Source of the DNA: a virus
Virus record (IMG/VR): IMGVR_UViG_3300004369_000061
Location: 1-35,183 of that record
Strand: one strand, 5' to 3'
Length of the DNA stretch: 35,183 nt
The notes beneath the pieces were generated by a model that had not been told where the DNA came from, made no database searches, and saw only the letters and a list, made by a program, of their open reading frames with translations. A program made the position numbers and the translations under genes. Shown here in pieces: positions 14,001 through 35,183 of this stretch. How positions within the stretch are numbered: position 1 is the stretch's first letter; each line of letters opens with the position of its first letter.

Positions 14001-17000
14001 CGGAAATTAGAAGAGATTTCCCACTCACACACAAAAACAATCAAATTTTTGAAAGAAATTTTGATGGAGCAGATTCTACTATTGTCAATCTAACTGATAA
14101 TACACTCAACATACCAAATCACTTCTTTGTAAGTGGTCAACAACTTACATATTCAACAAGTTTGGGTATTAAGACTGATTTCATCTCGATTGCTTCTACA
14201 GATGGATTTGTTGGTGTTGGAACAACCACCACCTTACCAGAAAATGTATTCTGTATCAAAGTTGATGAAGATAACATCAAACTTGCTGCAACTGCAGAAC
14301 TTGCTCTCCGCAAGAATCCAGTTTCTGTAGCATTTACTGGAGTTGGTATTGGAAACTCCCATACATTGACTGCTATCGATGCAAATCAAAAAGTCTTGAT
14401 TTCTATTGATAATATGATTCAGTCTCCTATTGCGGAGACTTCAATTAGAACAACTTTAGCAGAAACAGCAACGTCTGCACAAGACGTACTGTACTTTACA
14501 GGAATTACTTCATTCTTTGGTGGAGATTATGTACAAATTGATGATGAAGTTGTAAAGATACTTGCAATTGGTATTGGAACAACAAATGCAGTTAAAGTTA
14601 CTCGTGCATGGTTGGGCACCAAGTTAGCTGGACACACTTCAACAACAACCGTATCAAAGATCAGAGGAAACTATAACATTAGTGGAAATACGATTAATTT
14701 CATCGAACCTCCATATGGAAATACTCCAATTGGATCCGTAACTGATCCACCATCTTTCAGAGATTGGATTGGTATAACTTCTTCATCTTCTTTCAATGGA
14801 AGATCATTCATGAGAAATGGAATAGTTGGAACTTCCAGTGAAACCTATACTAAAAATTATCTGTATGATGATATTACTGAAAGATTTAATGGACAAACAA
14901 AACAATTCTCATTAACATCAGATGGTCAAGATGTTACTGGAATTAGCACCAACTTCCCATTGTTGCTAATTAATGGAATTTTACAAGGTCCTGGTGCAAA
15001 TTACAACTACACCTTGATAGAGCAATCTGGAATTACTTCAGTCAGATTTACAGGAACTGCAAGTTCTGTTTCATATGATGTTAATAATGCAAACATTCCT
15101 ACGGGAGGAGTCATCGTTTCTGTCGGATCAAGTTCTGGATTTGGTTTACAACCACTTGTTGCTGCTGGAGGAACGGCAGTAATCTCCGCAGCAGGAACAG
15201 TTTCTTCTATCTCTATTGGAAATAGTGGTTCTGGATACAGAAGTGGTATTCAAACAACAGTTAATGTTGGCGTAGGAACCTCCTCTACAGGAATTCCAAA
15301 TATTGAATTCATCGGAACCGCTGCTATAAGTGGTGGTCATATTGTCAGTGTTGCCATCACAAATCCAGGTGCGGGGTACACTAGTTCAAATCCGCCTTAT
15401 GTATTCTTTGATGCTCCACTATCTTATACAAATCTTCCTTTACATTATAGCGCAAGTTCCCCAGGAGTTGGAGGAACTCAAGCAAAAGTAGATGTTGTTG
15501 TTGGGCAAGGATCTAGTGTAATAGAGTTCAGTGTCTCAAACACTGGATATGGATATGGAGTTGGTCAAATATTGACAATTGGAGTTGGTGGAACAGTTGG
15601 AATTCCAACAGATCCAACAAAAACTTTTGAAGAGTTTAAACTTACAATTGATAGAGTTGATGCAGATCAATTTACTGCATGGTCTGTTGGATCAATCGCA
15701 GTTCTTGACGATTTCTCTAATCTTTTCAATGGAATCAGAAAAACCTTCCCAATTTCAGAGAATGGAGAATCTCTCTCGATTGTTTCAAAACCTGGATCGA
15801 ATATATCAATTCAAGATACCTTGTTGATATTCATTAACGATATTTTACAAGTTCCTGGAGAATCCTATGAGTTTTCTGGTGGAAGCAACATTAATTTCAC
15901 AGAAGCACCAAAAGCAGGGGATACTCTAAAGTTCTTGTTCTATAAAGGAACTGGTGGTGTTGATGTTACTGATGTTGATGTAACAGAGACTGTAAAAGTT
16001 GGTGATGACCTGACAATTGAGAGTGATAGTTCTTTATTAGATCAAAATACAAGGACTGTTTCTGAAATTGTTTCTTCTGGAACCGTAAACACAAATACTT
16101 ACTTTGGTCCTGGTTTAAGTGCTAATACTTCATTATTAAGACCAGTAAAATGGTGTAGACAATCTGAAGATAGACTCATTAATGGTAAAGTTGTCAGTAA
16201 AGCACGCGATTTGTATGAAGCAGATATTTTCCCAACAACTTATTTGATAAGATCTGTTGGTGTGGGATCAACTGAAATTTATGTTGATAATGTTAGACCA
16301 TTCTTTAATCCTCTCAATGAAAATATCGTGTCAGTTGAGTTCCAAAAAGAAATTATGATCGTTGATAATGGCGAAAAAGTTTCTGCTGCTGCAACTGCTA
16401 TTGTTTCTATCGCAGGAACAATATCATCTGTTGTAATTTCTTCTGGTGGTATTGGATATGCTGCCGCACCACAAGTAACCATAGAAAACCCCGTTGGCGT
16501 TGGAACTTCGCAAAGAGCAACTGCGACTGCTTCAATTTCTGCAGGAGCAACTGTTTCTAGTGTTACGATAACTTCTCCTGGAACTGGATATACTACAACA
16601 AATCCACCATTGGTTTTGATTGGACCTCCAGCAACAGTAAAAGAAGAAGATAACACAATCGTATCCTATAGCGGAGATTATGGTGTTATTACTGGAATCA
16701 GCACAACTTCAGTTGGAGTTGCTTCTACTGCAATTGTGTTTGATTTAGTGATTGAAGCAACATCAACATTGAGAAATAACACTAACATTACTCCACAAAC
16801 AACAATCAGTGGATTATCTACAGGAGATTTCTTCATTGTATATGATTCTAATGTTGGTAGTGGTGTAACTTCTCTTGATGAAGATCTAAACGTAATTGGA
16901 ATTGGTACAACTTGTCTTGATAACATTTATAGAGTTGCAGCAGTTTCTACTGCTAGCACATCTGCTGTTGGATTTGCATCAACTACAGTTGCTAGAGTTA

Positions 17001-17209
17001 CTGTTAGTGTTTCCGATTACAATGGATTTAGTGCTGCTGGATTGGCAATTAGTAGTTTCTATGGCAGATATAGTTGGGGTAAAATTATTACCAGTGAAAG
17101 AGTTGGTACAAGCACATACTCTGCGATTACTACAAATGGAGTTGTTGGAATTCAAACAGGTCCTTACATTATAAGAACCAAATCATTAAAGTCCCAGGGT
17201 TATTCCTAA
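5021..17209 (+). CDS. Giant gp7-like baseplate protein with a YHYH domain (4062 aa)
   Basis: This 12.2-kb gene sits between gp6 and gp8, where T4 has gene 7 (1032 aa). Residues about 189-215 (SKDFYSTRGTEDSFKILFKA) and 2450-2495 (IRSKIPFEDWNDVVSSLLHT) match two neighbouring segments of the T4 gp7 C-terminal region as I remember it. They suggest a gp7 core interrupted by about 2,100 residues. Other parts: an IDDE-type repeat at about 90-150; 'NHG-x-TG' repeats at about 595, 853, 963, 1700, 1869 and 3030; a YHYH domain at about 1227-1387 (DGYPIYGP, LDENNGR, PYLIG); many GxGY repeats; HDG-type repeats at about 2745 and 2890; and 'LLFINDILQVPG' repeats near 3310 and 3600. There is no signal peptide or membrane segment. 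It is probably a wedge scaffold with a large surface-exposed part. Confidence 0.85.
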   Translation: MANNRVQIRQVLQSQLPNYVKDEFPLIASFLTQYFSGLEFQGGPIDLIQNIDSYIKLNSNANTIGETELTFDADESQDYLDVSNTAGFPENSGILQVDDEIIIYEAKVGTRFLGCSRGFVGVTSFENPDNPEEAVFSTSSADSHLAGSVVRNLSVLFLQEFLKKIKVQFLPGLQSKELSQNLNQAQFIRQSKDFYSTRGTEDSFKILFKALYNDEISIIRPKDYLFTPSNASYQITRDLIVESVEGDPYNLLNKTLFQDSFENIGKAYAPVSFVEKIVVGVSTDNYYKISIDTSYNKNDGSTELLYGDFSVHAKTQVIDTVSVGQTYFEVDSTIGFPQSGTLSVTFLDGTAGIITYSDKSPNQFLGITTTSITGTISDGTVVDQNTYAYGFDDESGESDGIKIKIRSVLNNLQKPSSAYYQSVGSKIKIKSLGKISSDTKANHWFFNTAQYYDVENLTLEDSSNNTYKLITKDSNILRIGDSVELTDRFTVKKPNDLFVVDVFDERTCLIRGSGVGDPSTIVKVSKRISRTDSSFYPELNKFPSNVQNTYLNGDKVLVSTNSLPYFLDTKLNPRNQKITLSGTFTLGQEILQISSGLDHNFYTGDVVYYTPQKNTITYTDAEGKTVTESTVISYLFDEGNYIVKRIDSNNIKLAKGVSDLYAEKFLTVTPVGGLDTVAIAENTLEKAEFRNKAIKPQKIYRQISTPTINSEEYETKSGYTGILINGIEILNYKSKNYVHYGVLESIDISSGGENYDVVNPPVVNISDSVGTGATGICAVKGEFKEIRVLNSGFDYVEIPKVKITGGNGSGATADVNLVVVSHQVSFNPTGVSTDISGIGTVGFGSDASTIGFTTYHKFRNGERVVYKTFGERAISGLSTDAVYHVSVQSPYIVKLHNTLNDSVLGINTVVLTSAGAGVHELKSLNGKSVVGSVTLTNAGSGYETKQRLCSSSGINTALNTVTINNHGYKTGEIVKYSFDGTAVSGLSTTVEYYVTEIDQNTFKLSSVGVGTTAKDFYLNTKQYEDFASTGVGTHSFNYPPVSVEVVGNIGIASTGSSKFKAILQPIVRGEITSIQLTNTGVGYGSSEIINFKREPDVTLRTGTGALLEAVVSESGKIIDVIVNRSGQEYNSPPTLVVSGIGSGANLVPKLSNGQIVGVEINKSGVGYGVSTTTIEVKETGSGAKFIPNIQKWTINNFGKNLPNINSDDVFISEANNTDFELQCSYVYAPRTLRKVIYSVNQDGNPLYGKKDLEIQNGQEVDNTSHSSIIGWSYDGYPIYGPYAYSTTSGGSITQMKSGYSLSLKPNRPPTSAFPEEFFVEDFEWRESADESVLDENNGRFCVTPDFPNGTYAYFATFDRSSSTDGAFKNFKKPSFPYLIGKNFQSSPDEFNYDPNSNHDEYDVSSHAWIRNTYPYALNKEYSGYDYLQKSYDFVNQDSTIKSIQKGYIDNIGIETGGTNYKVNDRVVFEKEPQSQFFSASRVSKILGASPSAISVARTEISNVEFYPIKGDGTFLGIGTAIHGFKKDDVINVSGLSTTSSFLDGSYEVGVSTNYLTVSKFIATDGATGIVTYISISGNIEFPQLQENDILGIGTGSNSEQVKVLNVDKVSSRLRVLRSQNGAVGVSHTLSTRIEELSRRVLINVGYKTSFNGKVNKEYYFNPVESLGISSVSGVGIGTTVFFSNPGSGVTEIFVPAQSLYLPNHKLLTGDEVTYRINSGDAIGVSTVSAGSSFTLADNSTLFVAKLSTDLIGLSTVKVGLGTTGTFVGIASTTSGQGLLYFIGVGTGVYHSLVTNYSGIVKGSIDRNLVTVSTSSTNGLLRNDTVFVDVNPSISTSVSVRYNTHNRKMTVGSLDFGASGITTSTNTITLSNHELTTGQKVIHTAASPATGLTNNEEYYAYVVDRNNIRLCDTKYQTTKTSPSFVNISTQSSGSILPINPPLTFYRNSTVTFDVSDSSLSYTRNSTKYPAFALKFYLDSEFTEEYVTNGKTSTFNVSKSGDFGSSGSTVTLTVNSDSPKIIYYRLEALDITGNLQQNLDIVVDDEIHSNNQLLIKSSLYNGTHTVSGVSTNSFNYTIKEYPEADSYSSSSSTLSYTTNSKFAYGPIAEVESLDRRLGYSKLPGISTITTLSGTGAVLNPSSKTIGRVLKIQIDNIGFNYPSDSTLSPQAILPQVLKVSAFYKFKSVGITSFGLGYTTAPSLVVIDGGTKKKINDVDLRYTVGSNKIEIKKNTLSLTNNSPTIIPTGNPNGIRVSNLEHDPSSETVKVTMKEVYSENFPISVGDKVLVENSSVGVGTTAKGFNSNEYDYALFTVTAVHPNLGGNVGFVTYSFADYLGTGESLGVFDSVNSSTVLVPEKYFPQFKYELESNSFQKANKVVSEDVKGTVFEWDEVNQLLTVESSEDFVVNEEIEETITGSKARIEEIYSFESQYDLDYYSIVENGWRYDSGILNNLDQKIQDNDYYQNFSYSIRSKIPFEDWNDVVSSLLHTTGLKKFSDLQVESEVVSADKEALKISPLDATTIQVDYVSQYDLNCVSNYDLVTENYLQSESSEFSDQISFSSRIITDYSESIGNRVLTIDDVSSQFNSNPRSTPYSNISRQPIGDGVATKFVVLAKDRLYTGERQVSLVTVLNNTSNGQAMISQYGDVDTVLNLGDFDYTIEGSEGVLQFYPTKFKLNNYNLSVFSYNLDRLGLNTETVGVGTTLVGVSTASSFPGSLISVASTNIIISGATTTELFTLAGIGTSTSGTRSAKLVVSIENDSEAEFDELSIIHDGTDVKIFEYGQLTTHSLDGFQRSSGLGTYGVTMSGSDIIVKYTPISGFSTTKVNALSVGLSSEGYVGNGTYDFVNAQLIANGVGIASTSSPTAIGIGSYGDSNDGAYGIIQVSDLTNNIHQLSEFVMVDNDSEIFLTEFAVYNTTNDPTGFGTYVGLGTLGAERSGSRSLLTFTPNPDIEVHVKTYINAVSVEENTSTTRTETDLGSASIKSNFSTYTGTLAEIRRDFPLTHKNNQIFERNFDGADSTIVNLTDNTLNIPNHFFVSGQQLTYSTSLGIKTDFISIASTDGFVGVGTTTTLPENVFCIKVDEDNIKLAATAELALRKNPVSVAFTGVGIGNSHTLTAIDANQKVLISIDNMIQSPIAETSIRTTLAETATSAQDVLYFTGITSFFGGDYVQIDDEVVKILAIGIGTTNAVKVTRAWLGTKLAGHTSTTTVSKIRGNYNISGNTINFIEPPYGNTPIGSVTDPPSFRDWIGITSSSSFNGRSFMRNGIVGTSSETYTKNYLYDDITERFNGQTKQFSLTSDGQDVTGISTNFPLLLINGILQGPGANYNYTLIEQSGITSVRFTGTASSVSYDVNNANIPTGGVIVSVGSSSGFGLQPLVAAGGTAVISAAGTVSSISIGNSGSGYRSGIQTTVNVGVGTSSTGIPNIEFIGTAAISGGHIVSVAITNPGAGYTSSNPPYVFFDAPLSYTNLPLHYSASSPGVGGTQAKVDVVVGQGSSVIEFSVSNTGYGYGVGQILTIGVGGTVGIPTDPTKTFEEFKLTIDRVDADQFTAWSVGSIAVLDDFSNLFNGIRKTFPISENGESLSIVSKPGSNISIQDTLLIFINDILQVPGESYEFSGGSNINFTEAPKAGDTLKFLFYKGTGGVDVTDVDVTETVKVGDDLTIESDSSLLDQNTRTVSEIVSSGTVNTNTYFGPGLSANTSLLRPVKWCRQSEDRLINGKVVSKARDLYEADIFPTTYLIRSVGVGSTEIYVDNVRPFFNPLNENIVSVEFQKEIMIVDNGEKVSAAATAIVSIAGTISSVVISSGGIGYAAAPQVTIENPVGVGTSQRATATASISAGATVSSVTITSPGTGYTTTNPPLVLIGPPATVKEEDNTIVSYSGDYGVITGISTTSVGVASTAIVFDLVIEATSTLRNNTNITPQTTISGLSTGDFFIVYDSNVGSGVTSLDEDLNVIGIGTTCLDNIYRVAAVSTASTSAVGFASTTVARVTVSVSDYNGFSAAGLAISSFYGRYSWGKIITSERVGTSTYSAITTNGVVGIQTGPYIIRTKSLKSQGYS
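7250..8580 (+). repeat. GxGY beta-repeat cluster 1 in the giant protein
   Basis: Encoded residues about 743-1187 contain repeated units of the form 'I-x-I-x-N-x-G-x-G-Y-x-x-x-P-x-V-x-I-x-G-x-G-x-G-A'. Examples are SGGENYDVVNPPVVNISD, NSGFDYVEIPKVKITGGNG, TNAGSGYET, TNTGVGYGSSEIINF, NRSGQEYNSPPTLVVSGIG and NKSGVGYGVSTTTIEV. They alternate with NHG-type units. The repeats are clear in protein but diverged in DNA, which argues for old duplication. Confidence 0.8.
15180..16640 (+). repeat. GxGY beta-repeat cluster 2 in the giant protein
   Basis: Encoded residues about 3390-3870 carry further units (GNSGSGYRSGIQ, TNPGAGYTSSNPPYVFF, SNTGYGYGVGQILTI, SSGGIGYAAAPQVTIENP, TSPGTGYTTTNPPLVLIGPP). Two paired units have a 'TAxISAAGTVSSIxI' lead-in that is also present in gp14. 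A 'FINDILQVPGESYEF' unit lies between the pairs. Confidence 0.8.
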
Positions 17210-18789: not shown

Positions 18790-21700
18790 ATGGCTCAACA
18801 AACCAATCTCAATGTCTCACCATATTTTGATGATTTTGATCCAAATGACAACTACCATAAGGTTCTTTTCAAACCTGGATATCCAGTTCAAGCAAGAGAA
18901 CTAACGGGACTGCAGTCTATACTTCAAAATCAAATTGAAAGATTTGGTCAGCACTTTTTCAAAGAAGGTGCTAAAGTCATTCCAGGAAATACTGCATATA
19001 CAAGAAATTATAATGCCATTGAGTTAAATAATACTCATTTAGGTGTTCCTGTTGACTATTACATAGATCAACTGTTAAAAAGAAAAATAATTGGTTTAAC
19101 TTCTGGCGTAACAGCAATAATTGATAAAGTCTTAAGATCTGAAGATTCGGAAAGAGGAAATCTAACATTATACATTTCCTACTTATCATCTAATGTACAG
19201 AATTCAGAAACTTCCACTTTTCTGGATGGAGAACTTCTTTCTGCAGATATTGATATCATATCTGGTCCATTAAATAATCCATTTATACCAACTGGCGAAT
19301 CGTTTGCTTCTACTATTCAAGCAAACGCATCCTCAACTGGTTCTGCATTTTCTATCACAAATGGTGTCTACTTCGTAAGAGGAAATTTTGTAAACGTTGA
19401 TGATGAAACCATTGTTTTATCCCAGTATTCAAATTCTCCTAGTGGCAGAATTGGTTTAAATGTTTTAGAGGAAATTGTCAATGCTGATGAGGATCAGACA
19501 TTAACAGATAACTCAAAAGGATTCAATAACTATGCAGCTCCAGGAGCTGATAGACTTAAAATATCTTGTTCTCTCACAATTAAAGATCTTGATGATTATA
19601 ATGATTCGAACTTCATTGAACTCGCTACAATAAGAAATGGAGTTTTAGAATCACAGGTCAAAAATACACAATACAGCATCATTGCTGATGAACTTGCACG
19701 TAGAACATACGCAGAGTCTGGAGACTACACAGTCAATCCATTTAATGTTTCAGTAAGAGATTCTTTAAATGATGGAATTGCAAATAATGGTGTTTATGAG
19801 GAAGGTCAGTTTACATCTGGTGGATCTTTAGCATCAGACGATCTCGCACTCTATGAAATATCACCAGGAAAAGCATTCGTAAAAGGATATGAAGTTGAAA
19901 CAATTAATACAACATACTTGGATGTACCAAAACCAAGAACTACAAAAACTTTAGAGAATCAAGGAATCGTATATAATACTGGTTCAACACTGAAAGTAAA
20001 CAATATTTTTGGTGCGCCGACCACAGGAATAGGTAACACATATATTGTAAGTTTGAGAGATCAAAGAGTTGGTGCAAGTTCTTTGACTGCTCCAGGAAAA
20101 GAAATTGGTTTAGCAAGAGTATATGATTTTGCTCTGGAAAGTGGATCATACAGTGCAACAAATGCGGATACAAATCAGTGGGATCTGCAATTATATGACG
20201 TTCAGACGTTCTCTCACATCACTCTAAACGAACCAGTAACATTATCAATTCCAACCCAAATTAAAGGAAAATATAGTGGAGCAACTGCTTTCTTAAGACA
20301 TGCGGTTTCTGCCGGAACTTCAATTACCGTTTATGAAAAGAGTGGTGAATTTGTAAATAACGAACCATTTATTTTCAATGGGATTGAGAACAACAGAGTT
20401 GCAATTGCAATAACCTCGTCAGGAATTACCGATGTAAAATCTGTTTATGGTGGACCAGATCTAGGAAATGTTGGTTCTGCGTCTACTTTCTCGGCAGATG
20501 CAGTTTTAGAAACTCTGATCAATGTTGGTATTGCCACAATTACTCCAAACAATGCTGGGGTTAGCACTATTGTATCTCCTTCTGGATCACCACTTCTTTC
20601 AAATGTAAAGGTAAACAGTGTTCTTCAATACTCTGATAGCAGTGCTACATTTACAGATCCAATTGCAGTAAGAGTAACAAGTATTGGAACAACTTCTGTC
20701 ACTGTTGTAGGTGTTCAGACAGTTACCGGCGTATTTGATGGTGCATTACCTACATCAACAACTTTATCTGTTACTGATTTAAAAATAGTTGGCACAAAAT
20801 TATCTGGATCAACAGCAAATTTGGATTCTGGTGCTCTTTATACTAGAATGCCAAAACAGTTGATTTCTAATGTTGATTTGACTGATGCTCAAATTTCAAT
20901 CAGAAAAACTTTCACGGTCAACATATCGGGAAATCAATTATCAAGTCCGGTCAGTGCAGGAACAAACGAAACTTTCCTGGCATTTGATGAAGAAAGGTAT
21001 TCATTAATTAGATCTGATGGAACTACAGAAGAATTAACTTCTGATAGATTTACTTTTACTGATGGCGCAAAAAATCTCCAAATCAACAATTTGGGTAGTG
21101 ATGACACTGGAGCAACGCTTACAGCATCTTTAAGAAAAACAAAAATAAAAGCAAAAGTAAAGAGAAGAAATAGAGTAAACACTTTAGTTGTTAGCAATAG
21201 TAATCTTGAAGGATCTGGAGTTGGATCAACAACACTAAACAATGGTCTTACTTATGGAAACTTCCCATTCGGAACAAGAGTTGAAGATGAGAAAATTTCA
21301 CTCAATACTCCAGACGTAATTAGAGTTCTTGGAATCTATGAGTCGGTTGATACTTCGGCACCTTCAGCACCCAAAGCAACTGTCACTTCATTAGATGGTC
21401 CTACAGGTAAAACTACAGACCTGATAATTGGTGAATTTATTGTCGGAGAAACTTCTGGCGCAAGAGCTGTATATGCAGAAAGACTGTCAGACACTCAAAT
21501 TACATATACTCCAAGAAATGACATTAATTTCGTTGAAGGGGAGACATTAACTTTTGCAGAGTCGAAGGTAACTTGTGTATTAACGACTTTAGATACTCCA
21601 AGTAAACCAATATCTAAAAAATACAAGTTCAATAACGGACAAAAGGCTTCAATCTATGGTCATTCATTCTTGGTAAGAAATCCTGGTGAAAAAGCACCAA

Positions 21701-24700
21701 CGAAGCAACTCAAGATATACTATACAAATGCTTACTATGAAGCAACGGATGATGGTGACATAACCACTAAAAATTCTTATGATTCGTTTGATTATGACTT
21801 CGATATTCAATATGTCAACGGTGAAAGAAACACCGATTTAATTGACATAAGACCAAGAGTTTCCAATTATACTGCATCTGCTGGATCAAGATCTCCATTA
21901 GAGTTCTTGGGTAGATCTTTTGATGGTAGTGGAAATTCTGCAGCAAACACTTTGGTTTCTGATGAGTCAATCAATGTAGATTTTTCATTCTATCTCGGAA
22001 GACTTGATAGAATTTTCTTGACAAAGGATGGAAGATTCCAAGTCCAACAAGGAACCCCATCAGAAAACTTTGAGAAACCTGTTGTAATTGATGATGCATT
22101 GGAAATTGGAACAATAAAACTTCCTCCATACCTGTTTAACACTCAAAATGCTTCTTTATCTTTCCTAGATCACAAGAGATATAGGATGTCTGATATCAAA
22201 CTTCTTGAGGATAGAATCAAGAGTTTGGAATACTATACAACTTTGTCACTTCTTGAAACAAATACGGAATCACTGTTTATTTCCGACTCTGAAGGATTGA
22301 ACAGATTCAAGTCAGGATTCTTTGTTGATGACTTCACAACTCTCTTACCACAAGAAACAAATGAAGTTATCAAAAATTCTATTGACCTACAAAATAGAGA
22401 GTTACGTCCAAGACACTATACCAACTCCATTGATTTAACAGTTGGACCCGTAGAAGGAGTTACAACTGCAACTGATCTGGGATTCACTGAACCCGAAGGA
22501 ACAAATATAAGACGTTCGAGTGATCTTATTACATTAGACTATACTGAAGTTGAGTGGTTGAAGCAAAACTTTGCCACAAGAACAGAAAGTATTACTCCTT
22601 TCCTGGTTAGTTTCTGGCAAGCAACAGTTGCATTGACTCCAGCATCAGATACTTGGGTTGATACTGCAAGAATTGAAGCTAAGATTATTGAAACTGAAGG
22701 AAATTATGCAGAGGAGATGGCAAAAGCCACAAGACAATTTGGCGAACCAGATAGACAAAATGGATTCTTCCCCATTGTTTGGAATTCTTGGGAAACTACT
22801 TGGACTGGAAGAGAATCTACCACAAAATCTCTTGGAACAAGATCCGTAACTAGATCTGGTGGAGGTGGACAAACAACAGTTGATGGTGGTACAAGGCATC
22901 AACAAGGTCCTGGTGGAAGAGGTCGAACAAGATCTTGGACAGAATCTCGCACAACTAGTATTTTAGAAGATTTCCAAACTGATACGTTTAGAACAGGAAC
23001 GGACAATAGAACTGGATCGAGAACTATTATAACCGAAAGGTTTGATAGAACATCCGTTGGCGATAGAGTTGTAAGTAGAGATGTCATCAACATCATGCGC
23101 TCTAGAAACGTACAGTTTGTTGCTAATAAAGTAAAACCACTTACAAGAGTTTATGCTTTCTTCGATGGTAGAGATGTAACCAAATATTGTGTTCCAAAAC
23201 TTTTGGAAATTGCAATGGTTTCTGGAGTATTCCAAGTTGGTGAAACTGTTGTCGGTAAAATGAGAACCACTGGATTGGGCAATCCAGATATTGCAGATCC
23301 AGATATCAGATTTAGAGTTGCACAAGCGAATCATAAGGAAGGACCTTTTAATGCTCCAACTAGAGTTTTTACAAATAATCCTTACTTATCTCAAGTTTCT
23401 CCATCTGCGATTGAAACTTTCTTGGGAACTCCTGGACAGGTTCAAGTTCCTGGACAAGGAAATGTTTTACCAGAAACGTATTCATCAACATCAACTGTTT
23501 TGAATATTGATACTTATGGACTGTCATTACAAGCTCAAGGAGATTATTATGGATATGTCGCTAAAGACATGATTCTTGTTGGGCAAACAAGTGGTGCCCA
23601 GGCAACTATATCTGACTTTAGACTTGTTTCTGATTTAAGTTCTACCTTAATTGGTAGTTTCTATATTCCAAATCCAAATATTGGAGGAAATCCAAAGTTT
23701 GAAACTGGAACTAAAACATTTACACTTATCGACAAATCAGATAATGATCAAAATGCTGCATCAACAATAGGTGAGCAAAAATATTCTGCTGCTGGTACTC
23801 TTGAGACAGTTCAGGAAAATATCATTTCCACAAGAAATGCTGAAATTCAAATCAGACAAGAATCTGAAAGTAGAGCGGCAAGAGAATTGATCAACTCTAG
23901 CAGATCTTCTAATACAATATCTTCAGTAACTACAAATACAACAGTCGTTGAGTGGTATGATCCTCTTGCACAATCATTCCAGGTTCTAGACGAAACTGGA
24001 GTATTCATTACTAGTTGTGATGTATTCTTCCAGACGAAGGACGACATGGATATCCCCATGACGTTCCAAATTCGTACCATGCAGAATGGTGTTCCTACTC
24101 AAAAGATTTTACCATTCTCTGAAATCATTAAGGATCCTGATCAAATTAATGTTTCTGCGGATGGAACTGTTGCAACGACATTTACATTTAAGGCTCCTGT
24201 ATATCTTGAAGGTGGTGGAGAGTATGCAATTTGTCTGGCATCTTGGTCAACCAAGTATAGAGTGTTCATCTCTAGAGTTGGTGAAACTGATCTATTAACA
24301 GATGAGTTTATCTCAAACCAACCATACCTTGGATCACTGTTTAAGTCTCAAAATGCTTCTACATGGGATGCAAGTCAGTGGGAAGACTTGAAGTTCACTT
24401 TACGTCGTGCTGAATTTGCAACAAATGGAACTGTTGAAATCTACAACCCAATTTTAGGTGAGGGTAATGGACAAGTTCCTATTCTTCAACAAAATCCAAT
24501 CGTACTAAATTCCAAGAAAATTAGAGTTGGTCTTGGATCAACACTTCAGGATACCCTGGTTCTTGGAAATACCTTCTCTCAAGAAGGATCAAATGCGACT
24601 GGAAACTACGTTGGAAATGCAGGATTAGCAACTGGAAACCTCACAATTACTAATGCTGGTGTTGGATATACTCCATCATCTGGAAGTTTGACTTATACAG

Positions 24701-26382
24701 GTGTTACTCTTACAAACATCACTGGATCTGGGCAGAATCTAACTGCAGATATTACCATCTCTAACGGTGTTGCTGTTGCTGCAACAGTTAATACTTCTGG
24801 AACTGGATATCTTGCAGGAGACGTTCTTGGAATAACGACGCTTGGAAATACCACTGCAGGAAGAAATGCTAGATTCTCCGTTGTCTCTATTGCAAGCACA
24901 AATGAACTGGTATTTGATAATGTTCAAGGTGACTTCCTGACTGGAGTAGGAAATACACTCAAGTTCACAAACAGTGCAGGAGTTACAACTACCTTAAACA
25001 GTGGAGCAGGCGGAAATGTTATTCCAACCACAATCAGAACAGTTGGTGTGAACGATGGTGTACATGTTGTGGTTAATCATAAGAACCATGGTATGCATCA
25101 TGAGAACAATAGAGTTACAATATCGAATGTTTCTAGTGATATCATTCCAACTAAACTAACTTCACCATATAATTCTGACTCAACTGCCGATATTCTTGTT
25201 GCAAGTAGTTCAAACTTTGGAACTTTTGAAAATGTTGGTGTTGGAACAACAAATGCTGGATATCTATTAATTGGTGATGAAGTTATTGAATACACCTCAA
25301 CTTCTTCTGGAGTAATTGGTGGTATAACTAGAGGTTCTAATCCAAAGAACTATCTGGCAGGCACACCAGTTTACAAGTATGAACTTGGAGGAGTATCTCT
25401 CAAGAGAATTAACAAAACTCACCTGTTGAGTGATGTCACTGCTTCTAATCCAATATCATTTGACTCATATAACGTTAAAGTTGACATGAGTTCGGATGGT
25501 GTTGATAGAAGTGTTGGAACCAGTTTCCCCATATTGTACTTTAATGAAACAAAATCTGATGGTGGATTCAAAGTTAAAGCAACGCAGAACATGCCATTTG
25601 AGGCAATTGTTCCATCAGTTCAAAACGTAACTGTTCCTGGAACTAACGTTACTGCTAGAATTAGAACAACCTCTGGTACAAGTCTTGGTGATGGATCTGG
25701 ACAATCAACACAGACTCCATTCAACAATGAAGGATTTGAAGATGTTACCTTGAATACAACAAATTATTTGTCATCTCCAAGAATAATTGCATCTAGGGTT
25801 AATGAAATTAACAATGCGACTATCTCTGATTTGCCAGGAGATCGCTCCTTTAATATGACTCTCACGCTGCAGTCCAATGATCCTCGCATTAGTCCTATCA
25901 TTGACACTCAAAGAATGAGTGCCCTTTTAGTATCCAATAGAGTTGACAAAGCAATTAGCGACTATGTACAGGATAATAGAGTAAATTCTATCAGTGATGA
26001 TCCAACTGCATTCCAATATATCTCCAAAGAAAACAATCTTGATTCTCCATCTACTAGCATTAAGTTGATACTATCTGCTCACATTAATCAATATAATGAT
26101 ATTAGAGCTTTCTATGCGATTGGGGAGAGCGAAAACTTTGAACCAATTTTCCAACCATTCCCAGGTTATTCTTCCTTGAATGATGGATCTTCAGATAAGT
26201 TTATTTCTCTATCCAATGCATCTGAAGGTTTCTTATCCAATGACTTGACATTCAAAGAATATACTTTTACTGCTGACAACCTTCCTTCGTTTAAGTCATA
26301 CAGAATCAAACTTGTTGCAACTTCAACGAATCAAGCGTATGCTCCAAGAATTAAAGAACTTCGAACAATCGCTTTAGCATAA
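18790..26382 (+). CDS. Giant virion structural protein with DUF4815 (2530 aa)
   Basis: The N-terminus (NVSPYFDDFDPNDNYHKVLF, then FKPGYPVQARELTGLQSILQ) is the DUF4815 signature of large T4-like tail proteins. From about residue 1280 a helix-rich segment leads to a Gly/Arg/Ser/Thr-rich low-complexity patch (about 1351-1386), then RVYAFFDGRDVTKYCVPKLL near 1450. EWYDPLAQSFQVLDETGVF, with FFQTKDDMDIPMTFQIRTMQ soon after (about 1720-1765), is typical of phage fibre and baseplate proteins. Two GxGY repeats occur at about 1950-2015 and an IDDE-type unit near 2150. The C-terminus SYRIKLVATSTNQAYAPRIK is also typical of the family. It fills the place of T4 genes 9-12, so it is probably an outer-baseplate or fibre-anchoring protein, but I see no direct homology to those genes. 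Confidence 0.85.
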   Translation: MAQQTNLNVSPYFDDFDPNDNYHKVLFKPGYPVQARELTGLQSILQNQIERFGQHFFKEGAKVIPGNTAYTRNYNAIELNNTHLGVPVDYYIDQLLKRKIIGLTSGVTAIIDKVLRSEDSERGNLTLYISYLSSNVQNSETSTFLDGELLSADIDIISGPLNNPFIPTGESFASTIQANASSTGSAFSITNGVYFVRGNFVNVDDETIVLSQYSNSPSGRIGLNVLEEIVNADEDQTLTDNSKGFNNYAAPGADRLKISCSLTIKDLDDYNDSNFIELATIRNGVLESQVKNTQYSIIADELARRTYAESGDYTVNPFNVSVRDSLNDGIANNGVYEEGQFTSGGSLASDDLALYEISPGKAFVKGYEVETINTTYLDVPKPRTTKTLENQGIVYNTGSTLKVNNIFGAPTTGIGNTYIVSLRDQRVGASSLTAPGKEIGLARVYDFALESGSYSATNADTNQWDLQLYDVQTFSHITLNEPVTLSIPTQIKGKYSGATAFLRHAVSAGTSITVYEKSGEFVNNEPFIFNGIENNRVAIAITSSGITDVKSVYGGPDLGNVGSASTFSADAVLETLINVGIATITPNNAGVSTIVSPSGSPLLSNVKVNSVLQYSDSSATFTDPIAVRVTSIGTTSVTVVGVQTVTGVFDGALPTSTTLSVTDLKIVGTKLSGSTANLDSGALYTRMPKQLISNVDLTDAQISIRKTFTVNISGNQLSSPVSAGTNETFLAFDEERYSLIRSDGTTEELTSDRFTFTDGAKNLQINNLGSDDTGATLTASLRKTKIKAKVKRRNRVNTLVVSNSNLEGSGVGSTTLNNGLTYGNFPFGTRVEDEKISLNTPDVIRVLGIYESVDTSAPSAPKATVTSLDGPTGKTTDLIIGEFIVGETSGARAVYAERLSDTQITYTPRNDINFVEGETLTFAESKVTCVLTTLDTPSKPISKKYKFNNGQKASIYGHSFLVRNPGEKAPTKQLKIYYTNAYYEATDDGDITTKNSYDSFDYDFDIQYVNGERNTDLIDIRPRVSNYTASAGSRSPLEFLGRSFDGSGNSAANTLVSDESINVDFSFYLGRLDRIFLTKDGRFQVQQGTPSENFEKPVVIDDALEIGTIKLPPYLFNTQNASLSFLDHKRYRMSDIKLLEDRIKSLEYYTTLSLLETNTESLFISDSEGLNRFKSGFFVDDFTTLLPQETNEVIKNSIDLQNRELRPRHYTNSIDLTVGPVEGVTTATDLGFTEPEGTNIRRSSDLITLDYTEVEWLKQNFATRTESITPFLVSFWQATVALTPASDTWVDTARIEAKIIETEGNYAEEMAKATRQFGEPDRQNGFFPIVWNSWETTWTGRESTTKSLGTRSVTRSGGGGQTTVDGGTRHQQGPGGRGRTRSWTESRTTSILEDFQTDTFRTGTDNRTGSRTIITERFDRTSVGDRVVSRDVINIMRSRNVQFVANKVKPLTRVYAFFDGRDVTKYCVPKLLEIAMVSGVFQVGETVVGKMRTTGLGNPDIADPDIRFRVAQANHKEGPFNAPTRVFTNNPYLSQVSPSAIETFLGTPGQVQVPGQGNVLPETYSSTSTVLNIDTYGLSLQAQGDYYGYVAKDMILVGQTSGAQATISDFRLVSDLSSTLIGSFYIPNPNIGGNPKFETGTKTFTLIDKSDNDQNAASTIGEQKYSAAGTLETVQENIISTRNAEIQIRQESESRAARELINSSRSSNTISSVTTNTTVVEWYDPLAQSFQVLDETGVFITSCDVFFQTKDDMDIPMTFQIRTMQNGVPTQKILPFSEIIKDPDQINVSADGTVATTFTFKAPVYLEGGGEYAICLASWSTKYRVFISRVGETDLLTDEFISNQPYLGSLFKSQNASTWDASQWEDLKFTLRRAEFATNGTVEIYNPILGEGNGQVPILQQNPIVLNSKKIRVGLGSTLQDTLVLGNTFSQEGSNATGNYVGNAGLATGNLTITNAGVGYTPSSGSLTYTGVTLTNITGSGQNLTADITISNGVAVAATVNTSGTGYLAGDVLGITTLGNTTAGRNARFSVVSIASTNELVFDNVQGDFLTGVGNTLKFTNSAGVTTTLNSGAGGNVIPTTIRTVGVNDGVHVVVNHKNHGMHHENNRVTISNVSSDIIPTKLTSPYNSDSTADILVASSSNFGTFENVGVGTTNAGYLLIGDEVIEYTSTSSGVIGGITRGSNPKNYLAGTPVYKYELGGVSLKRINKTHLLSDVTASNPISFDSYNVKVDMSSDGVDRSVGTSFPILYFNETKSDGGFKVKATQNMPFEAIVPSVQNVTVPGTNVTARIRTTSGTSLGDGSGQSTQTPFNNEGFEDVTLNTTNYLSSPRIIASRVNEINNATISDLPGDRSFNMTLTLQSNDPRISPIIDTQRMSALLVSNRVDKAISDYVQDNRVNSISDDPTAFQYISKENNLDSPSTSIKLILSAHINQYNDIRAFYAIGESENFEPIFQPFPGYSSLNDGSSDKFISLSNASEGFLSNDLTFKEYTFTADNLPSFKSYRIKLVATSTNQAYAPRIKELRTIALA
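24636..24850 (+). repeat. GxGY repeat pair in the DUF4815 protein
   Basis: The encoded stretch contains LTITNAGVGYTPSSGSLTYT and TVNTSGTGYLAGDVLGITTL, two units of the same type as in the gp7-like giant, gp8 and gp14. Confidence 0.7.
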
Positions 26383-30934: not shown

Positions 30935-30957
30935 CTTTGGGAGAGAAATCCCAAAGT
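30934..30957 (+). promoter_or_regulatory. Perfect 9-bp RNA hairpin between gp16 and the fibre-like gene
   Basis: ACTTTGGGA (30934-30942) pairs perfectly with TCCCAAAGT (30949-30957) around a GAGAAA loop. No U-run follows, so this is not a standard intrinsic terminator. It fills the gap between gp16 and the ATG at 30976. It may shield the end of the upstream message, mark a processing site, or hold a GGGAGAG purine tract away from ribosomes. Confidence 0.6.
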
Positions 30958-30975
30958 ACAAATGTTACTCATACC

Positions 30976-33210
30976 ATGTCACACGAAGAGTTACCTTCGA
31001 TTGAAGAGTTTACTGAAGATTTTAGTAAACTACCATCAGTCGATGATTTTTTAACAGAAGGAGCACTGAAGGAATTACCTTCTGTTGAAGATTTCATTGA
31101 AAAAGAACAAGAAGTATTAGTAGAAGCAACGCAAACGATAGAAGATGCTGAAGGAAATTCGTTTGCTGAAATAAAAGATATAATCCCACCGTTTCCAGAA
31201 TTAATTCGTTTAATTAATGATGTCAGAAGAGATATTCCTGACATCCCAGAAATTAAATATTACGATAAAGAACTAGAAGATTTAACGGAACAAATTAACA
31301 GGGTAAGAGAAGAAATACCCGAAGTCAGATACTATGAAGCAGAAATAGAGGCTATCTGTGATCAAATAGACCTCGTAAAACAAGTAGTAGAAAAGAACGC
31401 TGCAGATATTCCAGAAATAAAATATTATGATGAGCAGATCAGCGAATTAGAACATCGCCTTGATCTTGTAAGTCAAAATATCACTGAACTTCCAGAACCA
31501 AGGTATTACGAGGAGGATCTCGAATCTATTAAGGTAACGATTCAGGAAGTTCAGAATCAAATTCCAACATTCCCCAAGTGGGTCAATGAAGTTAATGAGG
31601 TTCCTGATTTTTCTTGGATTGGAAAGACTTTCAGTGTCATTGATGATGACTTTGTTAAAGTTCATGATGCAGTTGAGGGATTAAGAGGTAAAGTTGAATA
31701 TGATCTTGATCAACTTGCAGAACATTTTGATAAGAAAGAATTTGAAACCAGAACCGAATTTAATGAATTAAGAGAAAGTATCAATAGTAGATTTGATACG
31801 GAAAAAGAAAAAATTTGGAAAGAAATCAAAGAGACCTCAATGAGAATGTGGGGTCATCATAAAGAATTTAAAGATGATGATAGAAAGTTAAGAAAACAAT
31901 TACTTGGAGAATACAATACTCTTAAGCAGACTCTCAAAAAAGATTTAAAAGAAATAAATCAAGAAAGTGTAAAAACAGATGAATTACTTCTTGGATATTT
32001 TAACGATCTGAAGAAAGAAATTTCAGAGTTACCTGAAGTAAAGTATTATGATGAGCAAATTGATGACGTAAGAAGTGAATTAAAAGAAGGATTTAAGTCT
32101 CTTAAAATTTTAGTTGAAGAGATTAGACAAAAACAAGAAGTTTTAAAAGAAGAGGTCAATAATAGACCCATACAACCAGATCCAAGTGAATCTAATATAG
32201 ATCCGCTTACACCAACAGATCAAAACTTTGCTACTCATGAAGACCTAGCAAAACACTATAAGTTATTTGTAAACAGAATCCAACAGCAGTTATACACTAT
32301 TGGTGGCGGTGGTGCTGGATTTATTAAAGATCTTGATGACGTTGAATTTGATCAAACCACTGGAACTGGAAAACTTCTCATCTACGATGGTAGTCAATGG
32401 GTAGGTATTGCAAGCACTGCGATTAGTGGTTCTCAAAATTTAAATGAAGTTCTTGGGGGAGGAAACACTTCATCATTGGGAATGAGTGTCGGCGTTGTTA
32501 CTGCAACCAAACTTCATGTTGGAAGTGGCACTACATTTACAGAAGATTTAGTTGTAACAGGTGATGCCCGTGTAACAGGAATACTTACGATTGGAACTGC
32601 AACTATTACATTAGATCCAAACACAAATATTGTTAGAGTTGGTTCTGGTATAACATTAGATGCTTCAAATAATATCATTAGTGTTGGCGGATACAATATT
32701 GCAGATTCTTCTGGAAATGCAAATTATGCGGGTATTGTTACTGCATTATCAATAGATGCCACCAGTGCAACTTTTAGTGGAAATGTTTCCGTTGCAGGAA
32801 CATTAACATATGATGATGTTACCTACCTCGATTCTATTGGAATTGCTACCGCAAGAAGTGGTTTGGAAATAGGATCTGGAAGTATTACTACTATTGTTTC
32901 TCTAGGTGCAGCAACAGCTACAACTACAACAACAGATCAATCCAACATTGATACTTTTGATGCTTCTGTGTTTAGGTCAGCACAATATCAAATTCAAATT
33001 ACTCAAGATTCTTCATATCATGTTACTACACTAAATGTTTTGCATGATGGGTCCACAGTATATTTGAGTGAATTTGGAACGATCAAAACTGGATCGTCTC
33101 TTGCAACATTTGATGCAGACATTGATTCTGGAAATGTAAGAGTTAGAGCAACTCCAAGTTCAACATCATCAACAGTCTTTAAAATTTCAAAAACACTCAC
33201 AAAAGTATAA
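30976..33210 (+). CDS. Coiled-coil, fibre-like virion protein (744 aa)
   Basis: The ATG at 30976 is chosen; a TTG at 30937 would lie inside the hairpin. The N-terminus has three copies of LPS(I/V)(E/D)(E/D)F (residues about 6-12, 19-25 and 33-39). Five PE(I/V/P)(K/R)YY motifs follow, at about 91, 115, 146, 173 and 353, each leading a charged helix; residues 90-410 are probably a long parallel coiled coil. After a Pro/Ser/Asn linker and GGGGAGFIKDLDDV, the C-terminal 300 residues are beta-rich fibre repeats (VGVVTATKLHVGSGTTFTED) ending in an HDG-type unit (LNVLHDGSTVYLSEFGTIKT). Placed after gp16, it may be a neck whisker, head fibre or tail fibre. No catalytic motif was seen. Confidence 0.8.
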   Translation: MSHEELPSIEEFTEDFSKLPSVDDFLTEGALKELPSVEDFIEKEQEVLVEATQTIEDAEGNSFAEIKDIIPPFPELIRLINDVRRDIPDIPEIKYYDKELEDLTEQINRVREEIPEVRYYEAEIEAICDQIDLVKQVVEKNAADIPEIKYYDEQISELEHRLDLVSQNITELPEPRYYEEDLESIKVTIQEVQNQIPTFPKWVNEVNEVPDFSWIGKTFSVIDDDFVKVHDAVEGLRGKVEYDLDQLAEHFDKKEFETRTEFNELRESINSRFDTEKEKIWKEIKETSMRMWGHHKEFKDDDRKLRKQLLGEYNTLKQTLKKDLKEINQESVKTDELLLGYFNDLKKEISELPEVKYYDEQIDDVRSELKEGFKSLKILVEEIRQKQEVLKEEVNNRPIQPDPSESNIDPLTPTDQNFATHEDLAKHYKLFVNRIQQQLYTIGGGGAGFIKDLDDVEFDQTTGTGKLLIYDGSQWVGIASTAISGSQNLNEVLGGGNTSSLGMSVGVVTATKLHVGSGTTFTEDLVVTGDARVTGILTIGTATITLDPNTNIVRVGSGITLDASNNIISVGGYNIADSSGNANYAGIVTALSIDATSATFSGNVSVAGTLTYDDVTYLDSIGIATARSGLEIGSGSITTIVSLGAATATTTTTDQSNIDTFDASVFRSAQYQIQITQDSSYHVTTLNVLHDGSTVYLSEFGTIKTGSSLATFDADIDSGNVRVRATPSSTSSTVFKISKTLTKV

Positions 33211-33365
33211 TGAAAACGTTTAAGCAATTCCAAGAGTCTTGGACTAATAAATATAAAAAGAGTATTGACTGTTCTAATCCAAAAGGATTTTCTCAAAAGG
33301 CACACTGTGCTGGAAGAGCAAAAAGAGCAAAAGGTGAACAAACTAAATCAAAACCAGTAAAGTGA
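33210..33365 (+). CDS. 51-aa protein with capsid-targeting-like N-terminus and Cys/Lys module
   Basis: The ATG overlaps the previous stop by one base (TAATG) and the stop overlaps the next start (TGATG), so it is coupled on both sides. The N-terminus MKTFKQFQES closely resembles the capsid-targeting peptide of T4 internal protein III (MKTYQEFIAE), which is cleaved after Glu by the gp21 prohead protease. The remainder (SIDCSNPKGFSQKAHCAGR, then a Lys-rich tail) is a two-cysteine module I recall from other cyanophage proteins. It is possibly a packaged internal protein; the function is inferred, not shown. Confidence 0.7.
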   Translation: MKTFKQFQESWTNKYKKSIDCSNPKGFSQKAHCAGRAKRAKGEQTKSKPVK

Positions 33366-35101
33366 TGAGCGAAAAGAAAGACCACGAATATTCTATGGCA
33401 AGAGCACAACTTGCTACGGTAATGAGTGCTGCTAAAAGACTCCGCTCAAAAATGAAGGGCGAAGGTGAACTTGAAGCATGGGTTCAATCAAAAATTACCA
33501 AAGCAGCAGATTATCTTGATTCTGCCGCTGATTATGTTGACAGTGGAGAAATGAATGAAGCAAAGAATGGTCGTTGTCCTGCTGGTCAATATTATTGCTA
33601 CACCAATAAAGAGTGTAGACCAATACCTAAAGGGTTTATGGTAGATCCTGAAGGTATGCTCCGCAAGGAAAACGGTGCAACTGTTGATGAAGCAAATAAG
33701 AGTGGAGACTCTTCTTTGCGCGACTGGTTTGGTAAAAGTAAGTCTTCTGACGGCAAACCTGGTTGGGTTCAACTTGGCGGCAAATACGCAGGAAAACCCT
33801 GTGCAAAACAACCAGGACAGACCACAAAACCAAAATGTGGTTCAAGCAAGATGAAGCGTGCTCTCTCCAAAGATGAGGAGGAAAGAGCATTTCGCCGCAA
33901 AAATCGTCAAGATCCAAATCCAGAAAGAAGCGGTAAGGCAATTAACGTCAAGACAGAGGAAACTCAAATGAGATCAGTATCTGAAGTTGCAGACTTTGTA
34001 ACTCTGCCACTCCAAATTGAAATTCCAAACAATATTAGAGATTTCAATCTTGGGTTAATGTTCCGCGAAAGTTTGGATCAAAACAGTGGTATGCTCTTCA
34101 TCTTTGATGAAGTAGCAGAACAATCTTTCTATATGAAAGAAACTAAAATTCCTCTGGATATTGCTTTCATCAGAGAGGATGGAACTATTGAAAGCATCAA
34201 ACAATTAGAACCATTTGACGAAACCCCAGTATCTTCAGAAGGTGAAGTGCTGTGTGCATTGGAAGTAAACCGTGGATGGTTCGCAGAAAATAATGTAGAA
34301 GTAGGCGACGAGATTGACATCGAAGAAGCAGCGGGAGAGAAAGACGCTTGCTACCATAAAGTCAAATCACGTTACAAAGTTTGGCCCAGTGCATATGCGT
34401 CAGGAGCACTGGTCAAATGCCGCAAGAAAGGTGCTGCCAATTGGGGTAACAGCACCAAAAAGGAAGAATTAGAACTTGATGAGAAGTGTTGGAAAGGATA
34501 TGAGAAGAAGGGTATGAAGACTATGTTTGGTAAGAGATATCCAAACTGTGTCAAAAAAGAAGAGGCAGAATGTGTCCATACCAAGAAGGGTAAAGAGTGC
34601 CCTGTTCATGGAATGGATGCATGTCCAGATGAAGTAAATGAAGCAGTAAGATTACCAGCAAAAACAGGTAGTCTTATAAATGTAATTTTTAGATTTAGAA
34701 GTTCTTCTCTCATGTTAAGAATGTTCTTCCCACAAACATCATTACCTACAAGATCTGATGTACAAGATCAGATCAACAAAGTGTATCCTGGCGCAAAAGT
34801 ACTAACTTTCAACGTTTCCGACTATGAACCAGGGCAACCAATTCTCCATGCCGAAGGGGCAGCATGGACCAGAAAGGAAGGACAAAAGAAATCAGGAGGA
34901 CTCAACGAAAAAGGCAGAAAATCTTATGAAAGAGAGAATCCTGGAAGCGACCTTAAAGCACCAAGCAAAAAGGTTGGAAATCCCAGGAGGGCATCATTTT
35001 GCGCTCGAATGAAGGGAATGAAGAAGAAGTTGACTTCATCTAAAACTGCTAGTGATCCCAATAGCAGAATAAATAAGTCATTAAGAGCTTGGAACTGCTG
35101 A
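33365..35101 (+). CDS. 578-aa mosaic protein with DUF192 domain; candidate prohead polyprotein
   Basis: The start ATG 33365 overlaps the previous stop (TGATG); a GTG one codon earlier is less likely. Modules in order: helical (1-65); Cys-rich CPAGQYYCYTNKECRPIPKG (71-90); a Lys/Cys module with DWFGKSKSSDGKPGW (118-200); DUF192 (about 204-320, with GLMFRESL, GMLFIFDE, FYMKETKIPLDIAFI and ALEVNRGWF); KVKSRYKVWPSAYASGALVK (332-351); CWKGYEKKGMKTMFGKRYPN (375-394); a Cys/His segment (403-420); an AVRLPAKTGSLI domain (427-497); and a basic GLNEKGRKSYERENPGSDLK domain (512-531), probably the type called DUF6321. Several boundaries carry a hydrophobic-x-Glu|Ala/Gly motif (MNE|A, VDE|A, IEE|A, VNE|A, HAE|G), like T4 gp21 sites. 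No membrane segment was seen. No function is proven for any module. Confidence 0.8.
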   Translation: MSEKKDHEYSMARAQLATVMSAAKRLRSKMKGEGELEAWVQSKITKAADYLDSAADYVDSGEMNEAKNGRCPAGQYYCYTNKECRPIPKGFMVDPEGMLRKENGATVDEANKSGDSSLRDWFGKSKSSDGKPGWVQLGGKYAGKPCAKQPGQTTKPKCGSSKMKRALSKDEEERAFRRKNRQDPNPERSGKAINVKTEETQMRSVSEVADFVTLPLQIEIPNNIRDFNLGLMFRESLDQNSGMLFIFDEVAEQSFYMKETKIPLDIAFIREDGTIESIKQLEPFDETPVSSEGEVLCALEVNRGWFAENNVEVGDEIDIEEAAGEKDACYHKVKSRYKVWPSAYASGALVKCRKKGAANWGNSTKKEELELDEKCWKGYEKKGMKTMFGKRYPNCVKKEEAECVHTKKGKECPVHGMDACPDEVNEAVRLPAKTGSLINVIFRFRSSSLMLRMFFPQTSLPTRSDVQDQINKVYPGAKVLTFNVSDYEPGQPILHAEGAAWTRKEGQKKSGGLNEKGRKSYERENPGSDLKAPSKKVGNPRRASFCARMKGMKKKLTSSKTASDPNSRINKSLRAWNC

Positions 35102-35102
35102 T

Positions 35103-35183
35103 ATGAAATCATTTAAACAGTTCATATCAGAAAGTGTCACTATTCATGGTGACTTTAATGGAACTCTCAATGTAGGAGGAGAT
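35103..35183 (+). CDS. 5' end of a protein with capsid-targeting-like N-terminus (partial)
   Basis: A frame opens at ATG 35103, one base after the previous stop, and continues past the window edge. It begins MKSFKQFISESVTIHGDFNG and then TLNVGG. The first ten residues again resemble the T4 capsid-targeting peptide, with a gp21-like site FISE|S. The following 'VTIHGDFNGTLNVGG' looks like a short beta-repeat. Only 27 residues are visible, so no product name is given. Confidence 0.65.
   Translation, partial: MKSFKQFISESVTIHGDFNGTLNVGGD

Follow-up and report, generated by a model that had tools for sequence, protein, structure and literature searches.

Near the end of the DNA analysed here, a viral stretch of 35,183 nucleotides (the window), one long open reading frame raises the question of whether a phage can carry several small proteins into its head as a single chain and cut them apart there. 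A reading made from the sequence alone had seen in its product about nine short modules joined in one frame, with Glu-containing motifs like those cut by the T4 prohead protease gp21 at most joints, and had proposed a prohead polyprotein. The frame has two possible starts (GTG 33362 or ATG 33365) and stops at 35101; counted from the ATG, the protein, called the mosaic below, has 578 residues, a pI of about 9.0 and 15 Cys.

The window virus is a marine virus of cyanobacteria (cyanophage), and the mosaic matches the family phrog_727 (T4-GC 119) with E 4.6e-158 in PHROG profile comparison, the homology spanning most of the protein. It is 71.6% identical to SSM2_109 of phage S-SM2 over 100%. Because S-SM2, Bellamy and others encode the same chain in one frame (67-72% identity), the mosaic is one protein and no chance fusion. 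Relatives of the ORF were found by tblastn in 497 phage records, cyanophages nearly throughout. In the records read, T4-GC 119 goes by the names hypothetical, structural or virion protein only. The gp22 scaffold family is absent among the Pfam and PHROG matches of the mosaic. In sequenced cyanophages T4-GC 119 occupies a slot between gp16 and gp17. The window has gp15 and gp16 upstream of the mosaic and ends before the expected position of gp17, which follows the mosaic gene in S-SM2 and Bellamy. Between gp16 and the mosaic (30937-33207) lies a tail-fibre-like protein with a TTG start and repeats of the form PEIKYYDEQI/PEVRYYEAEI, and two very long ORFs, 5021-17209 (4062 aa) and 18790-26382 (2530 aa), occupy the positions that gp7 and the VrlC-like protein have in S-SM2.

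The modules and joints of the mosaic, together with its immediate neighbours, are as follows (an arrow marks the bond after Glu; P1 is the residue before it, P1' the residue after).

33210..33365, plus strand: 51-aa ORF beginning MKTFKQFQE↓SWTNKYKKSIDCSNPKGFSQKAHC..., a capsid-targeting-like leader and a small module of basic character; overlaps the start of the mosaic.
33365..35101, plus strand: mosaic protein, T4-GC 119 / phrog_727 homologue, 578 aa plus stop (ORF list).
33365..33550, plus strand: module A, residues 1-62, two predicted helices (2-27 and 33-58).
33551..33562, plus strand: junction MNE↓A (65/66), within the low-pLDDT segment 59-68.
33560..33682, plus strand: module B, Cys-rich, residues 66-106; encoded elsewhere as a gene of its own, behind a capsid-targeting-like leader.
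33683..33694, plus strand: junction VDE↓A (109/110), in the low-pLDDT segment 104-120.
33692..33964, plus strand: module C, basic, with SLRDWFGKS, residues 110-200; phrog_12753 match at 117-191.
33977..33988, plus strand: junction SVSE↓V (207/208), before DUF192, in the low-pLDDT segment 191-240.
34013..34321, plus strand: DUF192 domain, residues 217-319; PF02643 E 5.8e-27; Foldseek 3m7a and 3pjy, E about 1e-6.
34319..34330, plus strand: junction IEE↓A (321/322); E 33/34, P3 chiefly I/V.
34328..34474, plus strand: module E, DACYHKVKSRYKVWPSAYASGALVKCRK, residues 322-370; stands alone as Roseobacter phage CRP-902 gp70.
34475..34486, plus strand: junction LDE↓K (373/374); E 32/32, P3 L/I/V 33/33, P2 D/G/N.
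34484..34564, plus strand: module F, CWKGYEKKG, residues 374-400; in several phages a stretch like a capsid-targeting sequence (CTS) stands before it.
34556..34567, plus strand: proposed junction KEE↓A (400/401); E 18/32, D 11/32, P3 Lys.
34565..34633, plus strand: module G, C-H..C-P-H-G, residues 401-423, seen in the sequence; 40 occurrences in relatives.
34634..34645, plus strand: junction VNE↓A (426/427), the best-conserved; E 34/34, P3 LIVM 34/34, P1' A 33/34.
34643..34846, plus strand: module H, a folded domain, residues 427-494; pLDDT 72-91 at 431-490.
34847..34858, plus strand: junction HAE↓G (497/498); E 34/34, G 26/34, P3 H/Q/Y.
34856..35098, plus strand: DUF6321 domain, residues 498-578 (Pfam match 507-576); PF19846 E 5.3e-22; net charge +16.
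34901..34912, plus strand: possible further in-domain site LNE↓K (515/516); E in 114/114 fused copies.
35103..35183, plus strand: start of the next gene, MKSFKQFISE↓SVTIHGDFNG..., a leader plus a module-H-related domain; runs off the window.

The division into short modules is borne out by the same chain in S-SM2 and Bellamy and by its shuffling in relatives, and the DUF192 domain that had been named is confirmed by Pfam (94.1 bits against a curated cut-off of 27; DUF6321 scores 78.7 against 28.5). All seven motifs that the sequence-only reading listed (65, 109, 321, 373, 400, 426 and 497) stand at the residues it gave; the junction at 207 and the in-domain LNE↓K at 515 were overlooked.

An AlphaFold2 model built with 34 sequences has a mean pLDDT of 60.8 and a pTM of 0.26, with low-confidence segments at 59-68, 104-120, 191-240, 320-373, 399-404, 422-431 and 492-513. 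The seven listed sites and 207 all fall within these segments. The model agrees with a chain of small, mutually independent domains that are flexibly joined and lack a fixed fold as a whole, so that, on sequence and model together, distinct domains appear parted by protease-type sites. Module E is also of low confidence and is therefore not resolved by the model. A Foldseek search of the PDB identified DUF192 alone (3m7a, 3pjy), and the remaining modules received no functional assignment from it. Such a string of beads, disordered at the joints, is also what would be seen if the mosaic were a multidomain virion protein of the head or neck that is never cut, its beads strung on acidic linkers and its hydrophobic-x-Glu-small motif serving as a linker or docking motif (for example, to the scaffold). 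The linkers are indeed Glu-rich, and the label 'virion protein' carried by a homologue is silent on cutting. We consider this explanation unlikely, yet the strongest of the rivals; what weighs against it is the behaviour of the joints.

T4 gp21 cuts after Glu, stripping short leaders off internal proteins, taking a 65-residue N-terminal part off gp23 and cutting gp22, gp67 and gp68 into pieces (PMC5694885; PMC9958956). The T4-equivalent cleavage position of gp23 in 81 related phages reads L/I-x-E, then A, Q, T, S or G. At the level of sequence, the mosaic carries sites of this gp21 type, hydrophobic-x-Glu (hxE) followed by a small residue. The proposed likeness of its joints to gp21 sites thus agrees with gp23 of related phages, but is marred by the polar P3 at 497 and the poor conservation of 400.

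Module orders were compared in 80 IMG/VR relatives, among which both the order and the number of modules vary. Module A, for example, stands mid-chain in relatives L004, L010, L036 and L042, in L004 between C and DUF192. Across relatives the joints follow one rule, a hydrophobic residue, a free position and Glu, with Ala, Gly, Ser or Lys usually next: MSE↓A, VKE↓A, VEE↓A, VLE↓A, VDE↓A and VTE↓A before module H; LDE↓K, LGE↓A, INE↓A and VSE↓A before module F; IEE↓G, IDE↓A, ITE↓G and VPE↓A before module E. The pattern [LIVM]xE[AGSKTQ] is present in 106 of 162 non-redundant junction 14-mers, compared with 39 when these are reversed and a mean of 27 (maximum 44) over 2000 shuffles, and 26% of Glu within junction windows lie inside the motif, versus 11% outside. 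When each ordered module pair is counted once, hxE is the majority in 62 of 72 (reversed 30, shuffled 11); the H to DUF6321 joint is among the pairs that break the hydrophobic rule, and these figures are to be read with the caveat that acidic linkers lift the chance level and that in some pairs reversed linkers also exceed shuffles.

Conservation of the sites was scored in an alignment of 34 relatives. The motif Glu had been expected to be conserved; at 321, 373, 426 and 497 the P1 Glu is 97-100% conserved and ranks among the best linker columns, while at 400 it varies. Site 400 was rejected as a conserved site on its mixture of E (18) and D (11) in 32 sequences and its Lys at P3, and is probably not a cleavage site. 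Junction 321/322 is retained although the upstream neighbour module differs among relatives, and at 207 Glu is present in 14 of 17 relatives, with chiefly M or V at P3. Sites 65 and 109 are conserved in some relatives and not family-wide: junction 65/66 is kept only where module A or N stands before B, and hxE occurs in 20/20 B-to-C and 12/12 N-to-C junctions. At 426, P2 takes many residues while the P1 Glu, P3 and P1' hold. A fixed P1 Glu beside a free P2 is what would be expected of a protease site and not of a plain linker, which needs no invariant P1 Glu, hydrophobic P3, small P1' and free P2. An uncut string of beads also sits poorly with a motif that outlasts the shuffling of unrelated modules and that recurs ahead of modules encoded as separate genes with targeting-like leaders.

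The capsid-targeting sequence of T4 IPIII is MKTYQEFIAE. T4 internal proteins carry such a 10-residue sequence, which gp21 removes; in the IPIII leader, residues 4 and 7 are important for targeting and residues 8 and 10 for processing (PMC9026906). The window protein, beginning MSEKKDHEYS, has no N-terminal capsid-targeting leader and in this differs from a T4-type internal protein. Very similar to the T4 leader is MKSFFQFLSE↓A, which starts the cytidylyltransferase GC190 of cyanophages, a protein detected in S-SM1 virions (PMC3037559). Stand-alone module genes start with leaders of the form MK-x-F/L-x-x-F-x-x-E: module B alone has one (such as MKSFDRFIEE↓AATKRCP) in 49 of 53 B-type ORFs (contigs L181-L260), module N, which comes first in the S-SM2 mosaic, starts MKTFQEFLAE↓SNPRIPR when alone, and the DUF6321 gene of S-SZBM1 reads MKTFKQYITE↓A...MMRAE↓GAAWT. 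That single modules elsewhere follow a capsid-targeting-like leader ending in Glu, as in most B-type ORFs, supports the prohead-processing interpretation. Both neighbours of the window mosaic start with capsid-targeting-like leaders, and the gp16-gp17 interval therefore resembles a head-cargo gene cluster. The same small gene as the 51-aa ORF adjoins many GC119 homologues, and the downstream leader-bearing protein is a distant relative of module H (profile match, probability 90.6, E 1.3e-6). In S-SM2, the gene upstream of the mosaic, SSM2_108 (L001:11288-11716), has its leader fused precisely where mature gp23 begins (FLKE↓TPTNSVGNGGYTS in SSM2_108, MIAE↓QPTNAVGNGGYTS in gp23), and thus reuses the exact Glu boundary. 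L008, L047 and L083 likewise have a leader that runs, at the cleavage Glu, into a copy of the N-terminal arm of mature gp23, with other modules behind it.

These stand-alone, leader-bearing versions of several modules could also mean that the joints are relics, leader-bearing internal-protein genes having been fused by recombination and the Glu motifs persisting, no longer cut, as leader remnants or short-homology scars. CTS-like stretches do occur within some mosaics (e.g., MTYQEFQE, ITYREFIAE), as in GMTYQEFQE↓KCWKGY of Syn33 and ITYREFIAE↓GNR of S-SZBM1, and before module F also in ITYTEFQE↓KCWQGY (S-CAM22) and LSFQDFQE↓KAMKCWKGY (S-SM1). However, the remainder of the leader decays whereas hxE is retained at nearly every joint. 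Glu 426 is encoded by GAA in 34 cases and by GAG in 25; since both codons are in use, the constraint acts on the protein, and short-homology scars in the DNA are disfavoured as the main explanation. We regard relic joints as improbable.

Among 21 S-SM2 proteins, motif excess over shuffles is highest for gp22 (z 3.5) and gp21 (z 2.6), both established gp21 substrates, followed by the mosaic (z 2.1), with all others at or below 1.6 and no excess in tail, replication or metabolic proteins. An ordinary tail or host-takeover protein whose Glu-Ala pairs arose by chance could be entertained from the modest excess in the window protein alone (nine [LIVM]xE[AGSKTQ], where shuffles give 3.8; P about 0.007), but chance was rejected as the main explanation, and is very improbable, given the comparative enrichment and conservation across relatives and the lack of excess in S-SM2 tail and replication proteins.

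Evidence on the virion comes from relatives. In the S-SCSM1 record the homologue SSCSM1_29, whose translation is a mosaic of the same family, is labelled 'virion protein', as are portal, sheath and protease, and unlike the terminases. Mass spectrometry found 45 virion proteins in S-SCSM1 (PMC9602691), and we infer that the label equals detection by that method. In S-SM2 (GU071095.1), GC119 carries the note 'similar to Synechococcus phage S-SM1 protein', which is otherwise found only on virion-type proteins (including gp4, gp14, gp21, gp25, gp53, GC15 and GC190) and is missing from replication and metabolic genes. These seven were newly detected in S-SM1 virions, in a mass-spectrometry search that used no enzyme specificity (PMC3037559). 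Because it is restricted to virion-type proteins, newly detected ones among them, the note is probably a marker of the S-SM1 virion proteome and can be used, as indirect evidence, in its place. Record labels thus support the view that relatives of the mosaic are present in virions. Absence from virions had been named as evidence against a polyprotein; SSCSM1_29 speaks for presence, whereas the related mosaics SSZBM1_192 and _194 of S-SZBM1 are both outside its list of 30 virion proteins. The 87-aa virion protein S-SZBM1_195, encoded beside the mosaic, was considered as a released module and rejected, its sequence being unrelated.

The explanation we favour, and think likely, is that the mosaic is a prohead cargo polyprotein processed by gp21 in the manner of T4 internal proteins. 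It would be made alongside other late head proteins and taken into the prohead core, where a gp21-type protease would act on the joints, cleaving behind the Glu of hydrophobic-x-Glu↓Ala/Gly/Ser/Lys sites. The expected yield is some six to eight small proteins (2-13 kDa), most of them basic and with Cys, plus an acidic DUF192 protein; cuts at 65, 109, 207, 321, 373, 426 and 497 are computed to give pieces of 4.9 to 13 kDa, mostly basic, with DUF192 acidic. These products would remain beside the DNA inside the head and may be injected into the host. Sequence comparison establishes a modular build, shuffling, site-like joints that obey the gp23 rule and leader-bearing stand-alone modules, and the earlier interpretation as a prohead polyprotein is upheld in part, by the gp23-like motif, the conserved Glu and these modules, and weakened at sites 400 and 497. 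Counted against a cut polyprotein are the missing N-terminal leader of the window protein, the variability of 400, the polar P3 at 497, a P1' Lys at 373 that was not seen at gp23, the S-SZBM1 mosaics outside the virion list, the acidic linkers and the reversed-linker scores. The wider proposition, that in marine T4-like phages prohead polyproteins act as modular cargo carriers, with exchangeable small proteins bounded by protease sites, packed as one chain, cut in the head and delivered with the DNA, we judge about evenly balanced. A single phage may encode several of these polyproteins, since the L261-L340 contigs (e.g., L275, L277, L301) contain, at other places, further mosaics built from different modules (N, Q, B, c, E, F).

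DUF6321 also stands alone, in podoviruses and pelagiphages. Two of these encode it directly behind the capsid gene: a T7-like cyanopodovirus as the next gene after the major capsid gene (L096:2453-2707), and a pelagiphage within 0.4 kb after it (L095:2480-2764). The free-standing proteins start M..AAW or M..PAW, the mosaic equivalent being E↓GAAW, and junction 497/498 is the same point at which they begin. Fused copies read GGLNEKGR in 114 of 114 cases, and free-standing ones GGLN[A/Q] or GGLTA (L094, L095, L096, L341-L419). LNE↓K at 515 may be a protease site gained on fusion, or may reflect mere lineage history.

If the mosaic is cut as proposed, the widespread cyanophage gene cluster T4-GC 119 would be explained, and tailed phages would have a delivery route of one chain, one packaging event and many products that is absent from the open-licence literature searched. 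The modules would then name small proteins that Synechococcus and Prochlorococcus probably receive when they are infected, and hxE before a small residue at module joints would be a sequence rule helping to find more such proteins. Cutting would be expected to yield the peptides YMEIADVKPGEQFLQVSE, GAAWTK, APPIESYETYDLEAMTE, SELFNE and DCWDGYEK from SSCSM1_29 of S-SCSM1, and EETQNE, SAAWTR and EEFEGNLSFQDFQE from SSM1_115 of S-SM1.

The sequence-only reading knew of no such phage polyprotein, and our search of open-licence papers likewise found no description of one, of DUF6321, or of DUF192 in cyanophages. Several known systems share features with the mosaic. T4 IPI-IPIII and Alt are small basic head proteins that lose a Glu-ended leader to gp21, and the modules of the mosaic are found elsewhere behind MK-x-F-x-x-F-x-x-E leaders; the mosaic, however, has several modules per chain, predicted sites at the joints and no N-terminal leader. 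T4 gp22, gp67 and gp68 have many gp21-type sites per protein (in S-SM2, gp22 ranks first and the mosaic third in motif excess), but none matches the mosaic in sequence, and gp22 is one scaffold domain that is degraded and cleared, whereas the sites of the mosaic part distinct, independently inherited domains. In giant-phage head proteins (SPN3US gp53/gp54, phiKZ), cleavage also follows Glu in a short motif at several sites per protein; these sites mostly trim long propeptides off one mature protein (PMC10052503), and such proteins lack an array of separate modules. T4-GC 119 (phrog_727), of which the window protein is a member, is homologous and holds the same place between gp16 and gp17. The open-licence papers searched describe no phage head cargo polyprotein that is cleaved, and the mosaic would best be called a variation on T4-style head-protein processing.
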